IMG/VR virus record: IMGVR_UViG_3300032331_002826
Coordinates: 1 to 64,000 of that record
Reading direction: 5' to 3' (one strand)
Source of the DNA: a virus
DNA: 64,000 nt
This document shows positions 6,202 through 63,176 of this stretch, one piece after another (position 1 is the first letter of the stretch; each line of letters begins with the position of its first letter). Made by a program: the position numbers and the translations under genes. Below the pieces are notes generated by a model. The model saw only the letters and a list, made by a program, of their open reading frames with translations, was not told the DNA's origin and did no database searches.

Positions 6202-6714
6202 TTAGAAATTTACGTAAAATGAACATTGTGGACCGCTATATTTGAATCCTGTAATAGGAACTTTGATTTTTAATCCTTCACGAATATGTGAAAAACTTCC
6301 CTTCTTAACATAAGCAAGAGTCATGTGGGGATGATAGTCTGGATACGAATCCTCATTTGGATACTTATCACATCTATTTCGAATCTCCATAAGTTGATCA
6401 TTCTTTTCAACGTCGAATTTTACCACGTCATATTTTTCGTTGTTGAATTGAGTCAATGATTTTAACACCACCTCAAATGGTTTCATGTGTTTCAAAATGC
6501 GTGCAACATCTCGCTTCTGTAAGTCAGGAATAAATCCATACTTAAGAGTAACATGAGGTTCTTCGCTGTATCCATATGTAGGATCTTCTGGATCCGTGTA
6601 AAGTATCTCAGGGGGAATTACCGTTTTTCCCAATTTGACAATATGGGGTCCGTAAGTAGGACTCACTCTGGCCATCAGACATCCCTTTTCTACAAATCTA
6701 TTTTCGGTCAACAT
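6202..6714 (-). CDS. 2H phosphoesterase superfamily protein (possible Acb1-like nuclease)
   Basis: A 170-residue protein with two H-x-T motifs, H54-V-T56 (PHVTLKY) and H130-M-T132 (HPHMTLAYV), separated by 76 residues. This is the defining pair of 2H phosphoesterases, which act on 2'-5' or 3'-5' linkages and cyclic phosphates. The size and spacing are close to T4 57B/Acb1, the phage enzyme that destroys CBASS cyclic nucleotide signals. tRNA- or ADP-ribose-related cyclic phosphodiesterase activity is an alternative. It lies in a late-type operon just upstream of the GP88-family gene. The family call is firm; the substrate is inference. Confidence 0.75.
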   Translation of the reverse strand: MLTENRFVEKGCLMARVSPTYGPHIVKLGKTVIPPEILYTDPEDPTYGYSEEPHVTLKYGFIPDLQKRDVARILKHMKPFEVVLKSLTQFNNEKYDVVKFDVEKNDQLMEIRNRCDKYPNEDSYPDYHPHMTLAYVKKGSFSHIREGLKIKVPITGFKYSGPQCSFYVNF

Positions 6715-40214: not shown

Positions 40215-42287
40215 TTAAAATTTCTTTGCGAGGAACGATTGATTTCTGTTTATTGCATTGTGTCCGATGATATTCGTACCCATCACATATCTTTGGTTAT
40301 CAACATTCATGTGCATATATTGATCATCACGTAGATAATTAACGCTATTGACCTTTACATTTGTTCCTTCTGTGGTTTTAACAAAGTCTCCTGCCTTGAT
40401 ATCTGTAACTTTGACCCATTGGTCATTTCCCAGATACCATTTATGGGAATGGTCAACATCAAACACTTGTCCGTCAATGTCCACTCTATAAATAGGTGCC
40501 ACATCAATATAAGCGACGTTAACTCTATTCCAAACGCCAGGAACCGAGTCTCTTAAATGCATTCCTACCGTTATATGTCTCGCTTCTACTACTCCCAGTT
40601 CTTTAGTTTCCATCAATTGCCATACAGCAGGACACCCACCTCCGCCTTCACCCGTTGTGGTTGGAACAGAAGAAACAGGACATTTCAACTGGTATAGTTC
40701 AAATGAGTAACTGCCCTCACCACCTTTTGAATCGAATATGTCAACGATTGCGGTGTAATCGTTGGATACACTTGGTTGTTGTGAAAGGGTAACACTTGAA
40801 CGCCCTTGCAATATCTTCAATGTCAATTGAGGGTTAATTTGATCCAACCCATCATTAAAGAACAGAGATTTCTTTTGAATGTCGCCGTGATTTTTTTCAT
40901 TACTATACGAAGCTGACTGGCCTTTTATTGTGATTTTCAACGTATGATCAATATTTCCTACGAAACTATAAACCTTGGTAGGCACAGGATTATCACATCC
41001 TTGTTTAGGTGAAACAGTCGGTGAAACCGGTTGTGCAGCATACGATGTCATTGACAAATTACCACTACACTCTTGATAGTCTTTAGCGTTATAAGCCATT
41101 CTCGAATTCCATACAACTCGTCCATTATAAATGATGGAAGCAGCGACGGAATGTGGACCACCCCAATTTTTATAGAATAGATTGACGTTCTTCCAACCAG
41201 CTGTGAGAGTTTTGGTCGTAGCATGATCACCCAAATATGCCTCTACTTGACTTGCATATGGAGAAGAACTATTTATGTCAGACAAATCAATCAGTTTAAC
41301 ACCATCCATGTCGATGTATCCAGCATTATCAGCAGAGAACTTAATAGTGTAACTTCCATCTGTTGGAATGTATACCTGATACGGGAGGGTATCTGAGGTT
41401 TCCCGTTCATACGTTTCAGATACCTTTTCACTATACACGCCGTAGGTATTAATCATTGGACTAGTCTGTAGACCAAGACTTTCCCACACGCCTTTATACT
41501 TTCCATACTTGTAAAACAGTTCTTTACAAGAGGTCTGTGGCGCAGCTACAGCAGCAACAGCCATTTGATGTATTGGTAATTGAACGGGAGCCGGAGGAGG
41601 AGTAACAATAGTTATCGGAGTAGGAAAAACTGGAACCGGACCTTTAATAACAAGATCGGTTGGTGGTATAATTTGAAGATCTTGTTGTACGGGACAAATA
41701 TCTCCCTGTACTAATGTCTGTGTCACTGATGTTCCCACTTTTGCGGTAGAAGACATGGACGTATCTGATGTTGACTGATTTACATTAGTTGAAGATGATG
41801 TTGTCTGCGTCGATGGTGTTGTCTGTTGAGTGGGCGACGAATTGATTCCTGATGAATCTGATGCTTTTGCAGCAGCAGAGAATAGAGGGAGATATGGAAA
41901 TGCAGTATTAAAATCAGACGGAATAGATCCTTCTCCTGCTTTTATTCTTAGAGATACAATAACATTTCTACTAGCATTGATAAGAGTATCTTTTTCAGAC
42001 GGATTTACAGATTGTAAACGTGTAGTTAAATCTGAAATTTGTTTTTGAAGATTTGTCTTTTCAGATTCAAGCGATGCCACTTTTTGGTTCGGTGCAGATG
42101 ATACTTCTTTAAACTCCTCTATCTCAATGTTGTACACCGATGACAACGACTGTTGTTCATACACTTCTGGATTTAAAATAACCGAAAGATATTTGTCTGA
42201 ACCTTCAACTATTATCAAGTTGCCAAATTCATCAAACTCATTCGTATATTCACCTGTACTTGTAAAATTGCTTTGGGTGGCATTCAT
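40215..42287 (-). CDS. Baseplate-cluster protein with C-terminal Hint (intein-like) domain, 690 aa
   Basis: Residues about 60-95 are coiled coil (VASLESEKTNLQKQISDLTT). A Thr/Ser/Gln/Pro-rich linker follows. Residues about 260-420 look PA14-like (LPYQVYIPTDGSYTIKFSAD, GYIDMDGVKLID). The C-terminal 126 residues form a Hint domain: C552 after GGGG, VEARHITVGMHLRD, FDVDHSHKWYL, WVKVTDIKAGDFV, ending IIGHN677 followed by A678. Thirteen residues follow (AINRNQSFLAKKF). Cys at the start and His-Asn at the end are the residues needed for intein-type chemistry; +1 Ala is typical of bacterial intein-like domains. Auto-cleavage or cross-linking of a virion protein is inferred. Confidence 0.75.
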   Translation of the reverse strand: MNATQSNFTSTGEYTNEFDEFGNLIIVEGSDKYLSVILNPEVYEQQSLSSVYNIEIEEFKEVSSAPNQKVASLESEKTNLQKQISDLTTRLQSVNPSEKDTLINASRNVIVSLRIKAGEGSIPSDFNTAFPYLPLFSAAAKASDSSGINSSPTQQTTPSTQTTSSSTNVNQSTSDTSMSSTAKVGTSVTQTLVQGDICPVQQDLQIIPPTDLVIKGPVPVFPTPITIVTPPPAPVQLPIHQMAVAAVAAPQTSCKELFYKYGKYKGVWESLGLQTSPMINTYGVYSEKVSETYERETSDTLPYQVYIPTDGSYTIKFSADNAGYIDMDGVKLIDLSDINSSSPYASQVEAYLGDHATTKTLTAGWKNVNLFYKNWGGPHSVAASIIYNGRVVWNSRMAYNAKDYQECSGNLSMTSYAAQPVSPTVSPKQGCDNPVPTKVYSFVGNIDHTLKITIKGQSASYSNEKNHGDIQKKSLFFNDGLDQINPQLTLKILQGRSSVTLSQQPSVSNDYTAIVDIFDSKGGEGSYSFELYQLKCPVSSVPTTTGEGGGGCPAVWQLMETKELGVVEARHITVGMHLRDSVPGVWNRVNVAYIDVAPIYRVDIDGQVFDVDHSHKWYLGNDQWVKVTDIKAGDFVKTTEGTNVKVNSVNYLRDDQYMHMNVDNQRYVMGTNIIGHNAINRNQSFLAKKF

Positions 42288-59180: not shown

Positions 59181-59571
59181 TGGTGGACGTGGCGGGATTC
59201 GAACCCGCGTCTTCAAAAATATATTCTACATCAGACTACACGCTTATGAATTTTTTGACCGCACAACAACCATAATCTAAAATCCCAAACTTATGATTGT
59301 TTATGTTTGTAAGTTTCAACAACATATCCAAACTATATGTCATCAAGCCTGATAGAGTACACCCAACACAATTATCAGACATCGTTGTATTGGATGTGCA
59401 GCAACTTAAGCTGCGAGTAGTGCAACGTCTTCTCTCTTAGAAGTGAAGTCGTAGCTGATTACTTTGCTTTTCTTAGCATTTATTTTTTGAACAGATGATT
59501 AAAGAGGCCGACCGTTCATCCTCTGCGTGCCTAACATGAACTAATCTTTGAATCGAGACCAGTACACGCCC
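59181..59571 (-). ncRNA. ssrA: tmRNA (ssrA), one-piece, 391 nt
   Basis: The 5' end GGGCGTG (59565-59571) pairs with CACGTCC (59185-59191), followed by A and an encoded CCA. The pair G3-U70 is the alanine identity signal expected in tmRNA. The 5' part reads GTACTGGTCTCGA, like the usual CTGG-TTCGA start, and the 3' part has a full T arm (GCGGG TTCGAAT CCCGC). A tag reading frame of 23 codons runs from about 59477 to 59409, begins AKKSKV, ends ALLAA and is followed by TAA at 59406-59408. The LAA end is a protease-targeting signal. It rescues stalled ribosomes. The exact resume codon (GCT) is inferred. Confidence 0.93.
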
Positions 59572-60308: not shown

Positions 60309-60382
60309 TGGAGCGGGTAGTGGGAATCGAACCCACACATCAACCTTGGCAAGGTCGAAGGCTACCACTACATCATACCCGC
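60309..60382 (-). tRNA. tRNA-Gly (GCC)
   Basis: The acceptor GCGGGTA pairs with TACCCGC; U73 as usual for glycine; CCA encoded. The D loop has GG and the T loop is TTCGATT. The anticodon loop reads CTTGCCA, with a 5-bp stem. Canonical. Confidence 0.95.
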
Positions 60383-60394
60383 ATTATTAAAATT

Positions 60395-60470
<76 letters not shown>

Positions 60471-61684: not shown

Positions 61685-61760
61685 TGGTCGGAGTGGAGAA
61701 TTTCGCAATCTCAACCTCCTGTCTCCAAAACAGGCCGTCTACTTTTGACATTACACTCCG
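61685..61760 (-). tRNA. tRNA-Pro (UGG), divergent copy with A18/G55
   Basis: The acceptor CGGAGTG/CACTCCG, C1-G72 and A73 are proline hallmarks and are identical to the canonical tRNA-Pro at 62816-62893; CCA encoded. The anticodon loop is TTTGGAG: UGG anticodon but A37 instead of G37. The D loop AAAAGTA lacks GG (A18 G19), and the T loop is TGCGAAA (G55). The T stem has one T-T mismatch. It may be a functional variant or a decaying copy. Confidence 0.75.
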
Positions 61761-61768
61761 ATAAAAAT

Positions 61769-61842
61769 TGGCAGGGGATAAGGGAATCGAACCCCTACAA
61801 AGGGCTTCAAAGGCCCCCGCACTACCATTATGCAAATCCCCA
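61769..61842 (-). tRNA. tRNA-Gln (UUG)
   Basis: Acceptor TGGGGAT/ATCCCCT with G73 and CCA. U1 faces U72, an open first pair, where glutamine tRNAs normally have the weak U1-A72. The anticodon loop is CTTTGAA. D loop GG and T loop TTCGATT are canonical. Confidence 0.92.
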
Positions 61843-61851
61843 GTTCTAAAT

Positions 61852-61942
61852 TGGCGGTGAGGGAGGGATTCGAACCCTCGGTGGTTTTTTAGTCCACAAC
61901 AGTTTAGCAAACTGTCTCTTTAGACCACTCAGACACCTCACC
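61852..61942 (-). tRNA. tRNA-Ser (GCU)
   Basis: Acceptor GGTGAGG/CCTCACC, G73, CCA, 91 nt with a long variable arm (GGTGGTTT-type hairpin). The anticodon loop is TTGCTAA with a perfect ACAGT/ACTGT stem. T loop TTCGAAT. Confidence 0.95.
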
Positions 61943-61979
61943 GTAAAATATTTGACATCTCCGATTTCTTCAAGGGACG

Positions 61980-62007
61980 ATTTTATCAGTCCTCGGCTCT
62001 AAGTCAA
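61980..62007 (-). promoter_or_regulatory. Sigma-70-type promoter for the tRNA-Ser(GCU) unit
   Basis: Minus strand: TTGACT (62002-62007), 16-base spacer, TAAAAT (61980-61985), about 40 bases before the mature tRNA 5' end. Confidence 0.65.
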
Positions 62008-62024
62008 GTAGAGTTGTATTAAAT

Positions 62025-62112
62025 TGGAGGAGAGAGAGGGATTCGAACCCCCGGAGGCTTTCACCCCTACGGTTTTCAAGACCGTCGCCTTAGACCACTC
62101 AGCCACCTCTCC
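62025..62112 (-). tRNA. tRNA-Ser (UGA)
   Basis: Acceptor GGAGAGG/TCTCTCC (G7-U66 wobble), long variable arm, anticodon loop CTTGAAA, T loop TTCGAAT, CCA encoded. The discriminator base is U73, where bacterial serine tRNAs have G73. Confidence 0.92.
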
Positions 62113-62132
62113 ATTTTGAAAGAACTATATGT

Positions 62133-62160
62133 AGTATAAACACAAACGTGTTGATGTCAA
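62133..62160 (-). promoter_or_regulatory. Strong sigma-70-type promoter for tRNA-Ser(UGA)
   Basis: Minus strand: consensus TTGACA (62155-62160), 16-base spacer, TATACT (62133-62138), about 20 bases before the mature tRNA 5' end. Confidence 0.8.
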
Positions 62161-62275
62161 CTACAAACTAAATTTTCTACCGTTTAAAGCCGTCTTACCA
62201 TTCAAATAAATTTGAATGCGTCTAAGCAGGGTTTTCGCCCCTCGTTCACCATATGGTGAATACGTCTAAACTAGC
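62161..62275 (-). other. Structured segment downstream of tRNA-Ala copy 2
   Basis: No gene. Three hairpins on the minus strand: TTCACCATATGGTGAA (62245-62260), AGGG-GCGAAA-ACCCT (62228-62242) and CATTCAAA/TTTGAATG (62199-62218). The first and third follow a repeated box TAGACG(T/C)ATTCA. This may be a 3' processing or terminator region, or a small RNA. Not recognised. Confidence 0.4.
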
Positions 62276-62280
62276 AAAAT

Positions 62281-62356
62281 TGGTGGACCAGGTGAGAATC
62301 GAACTCACAACAGATTGCTTGCAAAGCAGTCTCGCTCCCTTAGAACATGCCAGCCC
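62281..62356 (-). tRNA. tRNA-Ala (UGC), copy 2, atypical
   Basis: Acceptor GGGCTGG/CTGGTCC keeps the G3-U70 alanine signal; A73, CCA. The anticodon loop is TTTGCAA, but the stem ACTGC/GCAAT has an A-C mismatch. The D arm is shifted: stem GTTC/GAGC with only a 5-base loop TAAGG. The T arm is canonical (TTCGATT). Possibly a weakened or regulatory copy. Confidence 0.8.
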
Positions 62357-62364
62357 GTAAAATT

Positions 62365-62451
62365 TGGTGGGTGTAGAGGGACTTGCACCCCCATGCCTTT
62401 CGGCAGCTCGTTTTAAGTGAGCCGTGTATACTAATTCCAAACCATACACCC
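62365..62451 (-). tRNA. tRNA-Leu (UAA), A18/G55 type
   Basis: Acceptor GGGTGTA/TACACCC, A73, CCA, 87 nt with a long variable arm (TGCC GAAA GGCA). The anticodon loop is CTTAAAA; stem GCTCA/CGAGC has A31-C39. The D loop reads GGAATTAGTATACAC, with AG where GG is expected. The T loop is TGCAAGT (G55). Confidence 0.9.
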
Positions 62452-62463
62452 GTTATCTAAACT

Positions 62464-62541
62464 TGGTAGCTACGACTGGATTCGAACCAGCACTATTCTA
62501 TTTTTGAGATAGACGACTCCTCCCAATTGGTCTACGTAGCC
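62464..62541 (-). tRNA. Short-variable-arm tRNA with leucine anticodon CAA
   Basis: Acceptor GGCTACG/CGTAGCT, nearly identical to the acceptor of elongator tRNA-Met as I know it (GGCTACG/CGTAGCC), A73, CCA. The anticodon loop is CTCAAAA with a perfect TCTAT/ATAGA stem. The variable region is 5 bases (ATAGT), so this is a class I body, unlike normal leucine tRNAs. D loop GG and T loop TTCGAAT are canonical. Amino acid identity is uncertain. Confidence 0.85.
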
Positions 62542-62551
62542 ATTAAAAATT

Positions 62552-62635
62552 TGGTCGGCATGATAGGACTTGCACCTACACCCCTTTCGGGACGAGCTTC
62601 TAAGACTCGCATGGCTTCTATTACATCACATGCCG
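62552..62635 (-). tRNA. tRNA-Leu (UAG), A18/G55 type
   Basis: Acceptor CGGCATG/CATGCCG, A73, CCA, long variable arm (TCCC GAAA GGGG). The anticodon loop is CTTAGAA. The D loop TAATAGAAGC has AG instead of GG, and the T loop is TGCAAGT (G55), as in tRNA-Leu(UAA) and the divergent tRNA-Pro. Confidence 0.9.
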
Positions 62636-62638
62636 ATT

Positions 62639-62716
62639 TGGTGGCGACGACAGGATTCGAACCTGCACTACCGGAGTTCTCAACCCCGTGACTCCTTCCA
62701 GTTGGTCTACGTCACC
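62639..62716 (-). tRNA. Short-variable-arm tRNA with leucine anticodon GAG
   Basis: Acceptor GGTGACG/CGTCGCC, A73, CCA, 78 nt. The anticodon loop is TTGAGAA in the stem CGGGG/CTCCG. The variable region is 5 bases (GTAGT), a class I body. The D arm TAGACCAACTGGAAGGAGTC is nearly the same as in the CAA tRNA, so the two share a common origin. T loop TTCGAAT. Confidence 0.85.
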
Positions 62717-62734
62717 ATATCAAAGATCAAAAAT

Positions 62735-62808
62735 TGGTCGGCCACGTCAGAATTGAACTGACTCTCTATGCTCCCAAAGCACACGTGCTACCGTAACACT
62801 TGTGACCG
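62735..62808 (-). tRNA. tRNA-Pro (UGG), canonical copy a
   Basis: C1-G72, A73, CCA; acceptor CGGTCAC/GTGGCCG. The anticodon loop is TTTGGGA with G37. D loop GG, T loop TTCAATT. Confidence 0.94.
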
Positions 62809-62815
62809 ATTAAAA

Positions 62816-62893
62816 TGGTCGGAGTGACAGGATTTGAACCTGCAACTTCTTGCTCCCAAAGCAAGCGCTCTAGCCAAGTTGAGCTACACTCCG
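62816..62893 (-). tRNA. tRNA-Pro (UGG), canonical copy b
   Basis: C1-G72, A73, CCA; acceptor CGGAGTG/CACTCCG. The anticodon loop is TTTGGGA with G37 in the stem CTTGC/GCAAG. D loop GG, T loop TTCAAAT. It has the same acceptor stem as the divergent copy at 61685-61760. Confidence 0.94.
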
Positions 62894-62902
62894 ATAATAC
62901 TG

Positions 62903-63082
62903 TTACTCTACATTCAACAACTTCAAATACTTATTCTCAGGTTCAGGGAAGATACTGTCAGCAACCTTCTTGATTGCCATGTAGTAACTATACGTTGGAA
63001 ACCTCTCCAACATCATCCTGTTTCTAAGGTACTCGAACTGTACCTCGTTGTCAACATCATTCTTCAAGTTGTAATCAGACAT
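62903..63082 (-). CDS. Small hypothetical protein inside the tRNA cluster, 59 aa
   Basis: ATG 63080-63082 (MSDYNLKNDVDNEVQFEYLR), stop TAA 62903-62905. The sequence is phage-like, helical and charged, with MMLERFPTYSYYMAIKKVAD and FPEPENKYLKLLNVE. It fills the gap between tRNA-Val and tRNA-Pro almost exactly, which supports it as a real gene. No family is recognised. Confidence 0.65.
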   Translation of the reverse strand: MSDYNLKNDVDNEVQFEYLRNRMMLERFPTYSYYMAIKKVADSIFPEPENKYLKLLNVE

Positions 63083-63100
63083 ATTTTCTTTTGTTAAAAA

Positions 63101-63176
63101 TGGTACGTGGGGAGGGACTCGAACCCCCGATAGGCACGGTGTAAACGTGCTACTTTGGCCACTAAGCTACCCACGC
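63101..63176 (-). tRNA. tRNA-Val (UAC)
   Basis: Acceptor GCGTGGG/CCCACGT (G1-U72 wobble), A73, CCA. The anticodon loop is TTTACAC in the stem GCACG/CGTGC. D loop GG, T loop TTCGAGT. Confidence 0.94.

Follow-up and report, generated by a model that had tools for sequence, protein, structure and literature searches.

The tRNAs described here are very probably intact, working molecules in which the G18-Psi55 contact of the elbow is replaced by a compensated purine-purine contact, A18-G55, with G19-C56 retained. The pairing is predicted from covariation and from the positions of the two bases. In canonical tRNA, G18 sits between bases 57 and 58 and bonds to Psi55; this contact is regarded as nearly invariant among tRNAs and as a target of TruB, TrmH and many readers of the elbow. 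The window, i.e., the whole stretch of DNA that was analysed (64,000 nt), consists of bases 1–64000 of a viral record of 74,203 nt (G000). The 13 tRNAs and one tmRNA that ARAGORN found in it all lie on the minus strand; a fourteenth tRNA, Pro-UGG, was missed by both ARAGORN and Rfam. The tRNA genes are located as follows:

61685..61760, minus strand: tRNA-Pro(UGG), identified from sequence; A18 at 61743 and G55 at 61706; three bases separate the acceptor and D stems
62365..62451, minus strand: tRNA-Leu(UAA), found by ARAGORN and Rfam; A18 at 62432 and G55 at 62386; long variable arm
62552..62635, minus strand: tRNA-Leu(UAG), found by ARAGORN; A18 at 62619 and G55 at 62573
61769..63176, minus strand: canonical GG/TTC array neighbours (Gln, Ser, Ser, Ala, Leu-CAA, Leu-GAG, Pro, Pro and Val), which serve as an internal control
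60309..60470, minus strand: tRNA-Gly(GCC) and tRNA-Ala(UGC), both with a canonical elbow

The original prediction had reported AG in the D loop together with a T loop beginning TGC for Pro-UGG, Leu-UAA and Leu-UAG, and the sequence confirms this. The T loops are TGCGAAA, TGCAAGT and TGCAAGT, respectively; the G18 and U55 of the canonical G18-Psi55 elbow are absent from all three genes, and A18 and G55 stand in their place. As had also been claimed, the other 11 of 11 window tRNAs have GG with TTC, and within the window A18/G55 is limited to the three named genes. The two Leu genes among them are interspersed among the canonical neighbours at 61769..63176. The cloverleaf is regular, with a 7-bp acceptor stem, 5-bp anticodon and T stems, U33 and CCA. 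The exception is Pro-UGG, which has 7/7 acceptor pairs, 5/5 anticodon-stem pairs (loop TTTGGAG) and the CCA, and only 4/5 pairs in the T stem, where 53-61 is T-T. Single A18/G55 genes such as this one may be weak. An identical copy of it is found in L036, and its relatives in L055, L068 and L114 have an intact G53-C61. Among the focal three, RNAfold recovered most of the cloverleaf for Leu-UAG alone, and the G55 genes have low Rfam scores.

A D-loop alignment that restores GG, named beforehand as a result that would count against the prediction, was not found. The D loop of Leu-UAA contains an upstream GG (GG-AATT-AG-TATA), but because the canonical Leu-CAA of the same phage aligns as GG-AAT-GG-CAGA, it is AG and not GG that occupies positions 18-19. 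Realignment is ruled out by this comparison and by the 7-nt D loops, which can be aligned in one way only.

Several features of the window lie beside this question. A long variable arm is normal for bacterial tRNA-Leu; the Leu-anticodon tRNAs CAA and GAG (62464–62541 and 62639–62716, minus strand) have a short class-I variable loop, which is also seen in L572 and L082, and class-I Leu tRNAs of a similar kind are present in other viral contigs. The tmRNA (59181–59571, minus strand) encodes the tag AKKSKVISYDFTSKREDVALLAA. At 40215–42287 (minus strand) lies a gene for a 690-aa protein, the C-terminal part of which looks Hint/intein-like by eye only.

Outside the window, the record carries five further A18/G55 tRNAs: Gln-CUG, Thr-GGU, Thr-UGU, Thr-CGU (matched by Rfam and missed by ARAGORN) and Ile-GAU. 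In the whole record, G55 is found in 8 of 33 tRNAs, 8/8 with A18, and U55 in 25 of 33, 25/25 with GG. The probability of this pattern under random assignment is 1/C(33,8), or ∼7e-8. All Thr tRNAs found in the record are of the A18/G55 type. A GOLLD RNA at record positions 68717–69180 (L001:9717–10180, minus strand) embeds the tRNA-Thr(UGU) with its A18/G55 elbow.

We scanned IMG/VR for T arms with TGC while ignoring the D loop, which yielded at least 120 stretches. Among the matches listed, a D-loop-blind parser called 100 TGC tRNAs, of which 88 had AG only, 3 were ambiguous and 1 had GG; the 210 TTC tRNAs called at the same loci, again among the matches listed, comprised 202 with GG and 1 with AG only. 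Two exception-seeking scans, for GG with TGC and for AG with TTC, gave a handful of structure-checked exceptions among the matches listed. In a control scan baited with canonical tRNAs, A18/G55 was found in 7 of 491 other viral tRNAs (1.4%), distributed over 6 of 74 loci, and AG-only calls in 0 of 476 U55 tRNAs. One scan selected AG and TGC jointly; the argument instead uses the D-loop-blind, exception-seeking and control scans. The samples are pattern-baited and the sequences mostly metagenomic.

Tool bias was checked with the D-loop-blind parser and with a finder blind to both loops, which uses only stem pairing, U33 and CCA and detected 1366 viral tRNAs vs 5 in a Markov control. Among its tRNAs with 7-nt D loops the combinations GG/UC (248) and AG/GC (88) are common, and GG/GC and AG/UC are both at 0. 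The clear calls (INDEPENDENCE; n = 2175) comprise 1913 GG/U55 tRNAs, 254 AG/G55 tRNAs and 8 discordant ones, several of which are calling errors or have one base inserted between G18 and G19. G55 without A18, which the original prediction had listed as evidence that would tell against it, occurs in only 2 of 256 unambiguous G55 tRNAs. A18/G55 is found in all 20 amino acid identities. D loops of the form AATAGCGTA or AACAGAGCA with a normal U55 are seen in L244, L335, L093, L022 and L745, and look as if G18 and G19 were split by one inserted base.

The coupling holds on several T-loop backgrounds. For a 54-58 pair of T-A, the finder blind to both loops counted 936 U55/GG, 5 U55/AG, 137 G55/AG and 1 G55/GG tRNAs; for A-U, 26 U55/GG and 42 G55/AG; and for G-G, 4 U55/GG and 37 G55/AG, with 0 cross combinations on either of the latter two. 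It is also present on A-A and C-A backgrounds. G55 tRNAs with A-U (n = 44) or G-G (n = 40) always have G53-C61 and almost always A60. ARAGORN misses 34 of the former and 38 of the latter, or 72/84 in total, and BLAST of the hidden tRNAs against cultured phages gave one partial match only. T loops of the forms AGCRTTA, AGCGTAA, GGCAGYA and GGCGGAA, with A54-U58 or G54-G58 and A60, are mostly missed by ARAGORN and occur in L738-L745, L573, L574, L104, L112, L114 and others. Covariation is also seen at 19-56 (G-C, A-U, U-A and C-G), which provides an internal positive control for tertiary pairs in these data; both 18-55 and 19-56 thus show the covariation expected of the canonical elbow fold. Pairs A-U, U-A and C-G at 19-56 were seen in viral tRNAs (L098, L104, L116 and L289) and in tRNAs of Mycoplasmataceae (G001).

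In order to count independent changes we built a tRNA tree without the D-loop centre and position 55. As the tree is noisy, only supported branches were used. Among 28 supported independent pairs that differ at position 18, 26.6 on average are concordant at 55 and 0 are discordant (median p 1.5e-8). For most A18/G55 tRNAs (237/259), some canonical tRNA is a closer neighbour than every A18/G55 tRNA specific for a different amino acid; for 186, the best canonical match has the same amino acid, with a baseline of 168/200 for canonical tRNAs. These two counts speak against spread from a single remodelled ancestor. Together, the independent pairs and the closeness to canonical tRNAs argue for many origins inside existing tRNA families. 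Among same-anticodon pairs at least 72% identical, which are not independent of each other, there are 163 double switches from AG to GT vs 9 single steps.

Such switches can be followed in the relatives that share tRNAs with the window phage, the viral contigs G692-G698. Leu-UAG has AG/TGC in the window, G692 and G693 (also L036 and L107) and GG/TTC in G694-G698 (also L055, L068 and L114); the copies in L107 (G693) and L055 (G694) are 93% identical and differ at both 18 and 55. Between the window and G693 (L107), this gene has compensated changes of 7-66 from G-C to A-U, of 51-63 from A-U to G-C and of the entire variable arm, which suggests that it is under structural selection. For Lys-UUU it is G693 that has AG/G55, with GG/U55 in the window. 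The Thr-UGU within GOLLD, AG/TGC in the window phage, has a similar counterpart in G693 with GG/TTC. The D arm of the G693 tRNA-Phe, TAAGCTAACTTAGTAGAAGCGT, has a single difference from that of the huge phage LR756502, G18 to A18, and the T loops are AGCGTAA (G693) vs TTCGAAA (LR756502). In the window phage and 6 of 7 relatives, alternative and canonical tRNAs have no anticodon in common and together form one set, with overlaps only in G693; Pro-UGG at 61685, which lies outside this count, has the same anticodon as two canonical Pro tRNAs of the window. An alignment of this phage and its relatives had been proposed as a check of 18/55 covariation; this covariation is near-perfect in more than 2,000 tRNAs, recurs on independent branches and is seen in orthologue switches.

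In two phages most of the tRNA repertoire is converted. G010 (131 kb) has 34 tRNAs in ∼8.3 kb. About 32 of these have the A18/G55 elbow; Ala-GGC, which combines GG with TGC, and Lys-UUU, which combines GG with C55, clearly depart from it. Most of the ∼25 tRNAs of G011 are also A18/G55. Compared with the viral background of 1.4%, conversion on this scale needs a genome-level cause, and near-complete conversion in one phage suggests selection in some lineages. Pfam identified a T4-like virion (portal, capsid, protease and sheath), HNH endonucleases, NUDIX and ADP-ribosylglycohydrolase proteins in G010, and no tRNA nuclease, TruB, TrmH or elbow-reading enzyme among 40 of its proteins. Also present in G010 are genes for a Ro60/TROVE-vWA protein and for a 2H phosphoesterase from the 2′-5′ RNA ligase superfamily (L751:7430-9229 and L746:5871-7862), and the window encodes a 2H phosphoesterase (6202–6714, minus strand) that weakly matches the anti-CBASS protein Acb1.

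The A18/G55 elbow is neither unique to the window phage nor to viruses. A strict A18/G55 pattern with an encoded CCA, run over 84,980 bacterial and archaeal genomes, gave 24 loci, including tRNA-Phe of Mycoplasmataceae, tRNA-Gly and tRNA-Thr of Patescibacteria and tRNA-Thr of DPANN archaea. The Mycoplasmataceae bins are presumably from termite gut, judging by their isolate names. In one such genome the A18/G55 tRNA-Phe is the sole tRNA-Phe among 35 distinct tRNAs recovered from a bin that may be incomplete; in the same phylum, no further A18/G55 genome was confirmed beyond the one already known. Patescibacteria (the phylum of G006) gave 40 matches in 380 genomes, and all 27 G55 tRNAs checked had AG (27/27; Cys, initiator-like Met, Gly, His, Pro, Thr, Tyr and Phe). 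Among cultured phages, an identical A18/G55 initiator-like tRNA-Met is carried by the Campylobacter phages F336, CP81 and CPX (Fletchervirus). It is annotated in F336, but the gene tables for CP81 and CPX (FR823450.1 and NC_016562.1; L753 and L754: 1501-1575) list its five neighbours and omit it.

Structurally, we propose that A18 would take the place of G18 between 57 and 58 and bond to G55, e.g., through A N6-H to G O6 and G N1-H to A N1. The L shape could then be retained without Psi55 and Gm18 and, in the A54 and G54 forms, also without m5U54. That 54-58 and 19-56 covary too indicates that the fold of T loop and D loop is kept. As the sequences predict, A18/G55 tRNAs would lack the target bases of TruB (U55) and TrmH (G18), and A54/G54 forms also the T54 site; resistance to enzymes that recognise the elbow is put forward as a hypothesis only. 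The rarity of single mutants suggests that the switch passes quickly through a costly intermediate. Most cases are probably ordinary compensatory changes, which may persist since a phage tRNA is not required to work with all enzymes of the host.

The original prediction had favoured an alternative elbow pair over decay, and the near-perfect covariation, the independent recurrence and the orthologue switches support it. That these are decaying genes which lost conserved bases by chance is extremely improbable: the weak T stem of Pro-UGG and the low Rfam scores of the G55 genes would fit decay, but the coupling to one specific alternative, the compensated stems, the identical or similar copies on other contigs and the A18/G55 elbow of the only tRNA-Phe found in a Mycoplasmataceae genome do not, and decay was rejected on account of the coupling, the stems and this single-copy cellular tRNA. 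D and T loops also deviate in the peptidoglycan tRNA-Gly isoacceptor of S. aureus. A comparable specialisation outside translation is very unlikely here, as the swap spans all 20 amino acids with no restriction to glycine and includes initiator-like tRNAs and the sole decoders found for some amino acids, even though PMC4810233, citing Giannouli 2009, reports that isoacceptor as poorly used in translation.

The A18-G55 pair is compatible with more than one account of why it arose. Neutral compensatory drift has a little under an even chance of being the explanation. In this account neither pair is better than the other, and drift is stronger in phages and reduced genomes since host modification enzymes constrain them less. 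The scatter over all identities and in reduced genomes and the near absence of single-mutant intermediates agree with neutral drift, but the same intermediates look costly, and drift through them should be slow; G010 and G011 are left unexplained by drift without a genome-wide bias. Evasion addresses the same question and is compatible with the A18-G55 pair: an enzyme that reads the canonical elbow, be it a defence nuclease, a toxin or a phage factor destroying host tRNAs, would spare A18/G55 tRNAs, and phages would recode in response. We consider this rather unlikely. It would fit the conversion of ∼32/34 tRNAs in G010 and most of ∼25 in G011 against the 1.4% background, and changes in the anticodon loop are known to shield phage tRNAs from tRNA-targeting defences (PMC10264068). 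However, most carriers mix both types as one set without a common anticodon, bacterial housekeeping tRNAs are also A18/G55, and the 40 G010 proteins include no tRNA nuclease recognised by Pfam. For whole-repertoire conversion in particular, non-recognition by an elbow reader is perhaps the most plausible cause. The broader proposal, that in some phages the elbows of almost all tRNAs were recoded at 18-55 and often 54-58, that a host-defence or phage enzyme separates phage from host tRNAs in this way and that many such tRNAs are unseen by current finders, is tentative and rather unlikely.

The A18-G55 elbow is a new variant of a known tertiary contact in tRNAs and not a new RNA class. It shares with the canonical elbow the cloverleaf, the 7-nt T loop, G53-C61, C56, purine 57, G19, the stem lengths and a contact of D loop and T loop at 18-55. 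It differs from G18-Psi55, G19-C56 and T54-A58 in having A18-G55 and, in a subset, A54-U58 or G54-G58 with A60; U55, G18 and, in the subset, U54 are absent as modification sites. Eukaryotic tRNA-Ala and initiator tRNA have A54-A58 with a purine at 60, stated not to be observed in bacteria or archaea (PMC7566577). These likewise have a purine-purine swap of a conserved pair and purine 60, but at 54-58 and not at 18-55. The G18G19/TPsiC signatures are also lacking in tRNA-Pyl and metazoan mitochondrial tRNAs (PMC7609411), which lose or reshape the contact of the two loops along with other structural changes, whereas here the geometry is normal and a specific pair replaces the canonical one. The S. 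aureus tRNA-Gly has altered translation properties according to PMC4810233 (Giannouli 2009), but is confined to a single amino acid and serves cell-wall synthesis. Phage tRNAs able to evade anticodon nucleases (PMC10264068) are similarly changed where tRNA-targeting enzymes may read them, in their case in the anticodon loop; the D loop, T loop and elbow are unmentioned in that paper. In the open-access literature we found no paper on an A18-G55 pair or its variants, and no mention of it in reviews that cover non-canonical tRNAs, modification of the T loop and evasion by phage tRNAs.

Taken together, evolution appears to have arrived repeatedly at one specific alternative to the near-universal 18-55 contact, even in initiator-like tRNAs and in a tRNA-Phe that seems to be the only one of its genome. 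The share of shape vs that of sequence and modification in the role of the elbow becomes testable. Standard models undercount viral tRNAs, with consequences for studies of codon supply, of host prediction and of defence based on tRNAs. Phages whose tRNA set is converted as a whole are natural candidates for orthogonal tRNA systems.
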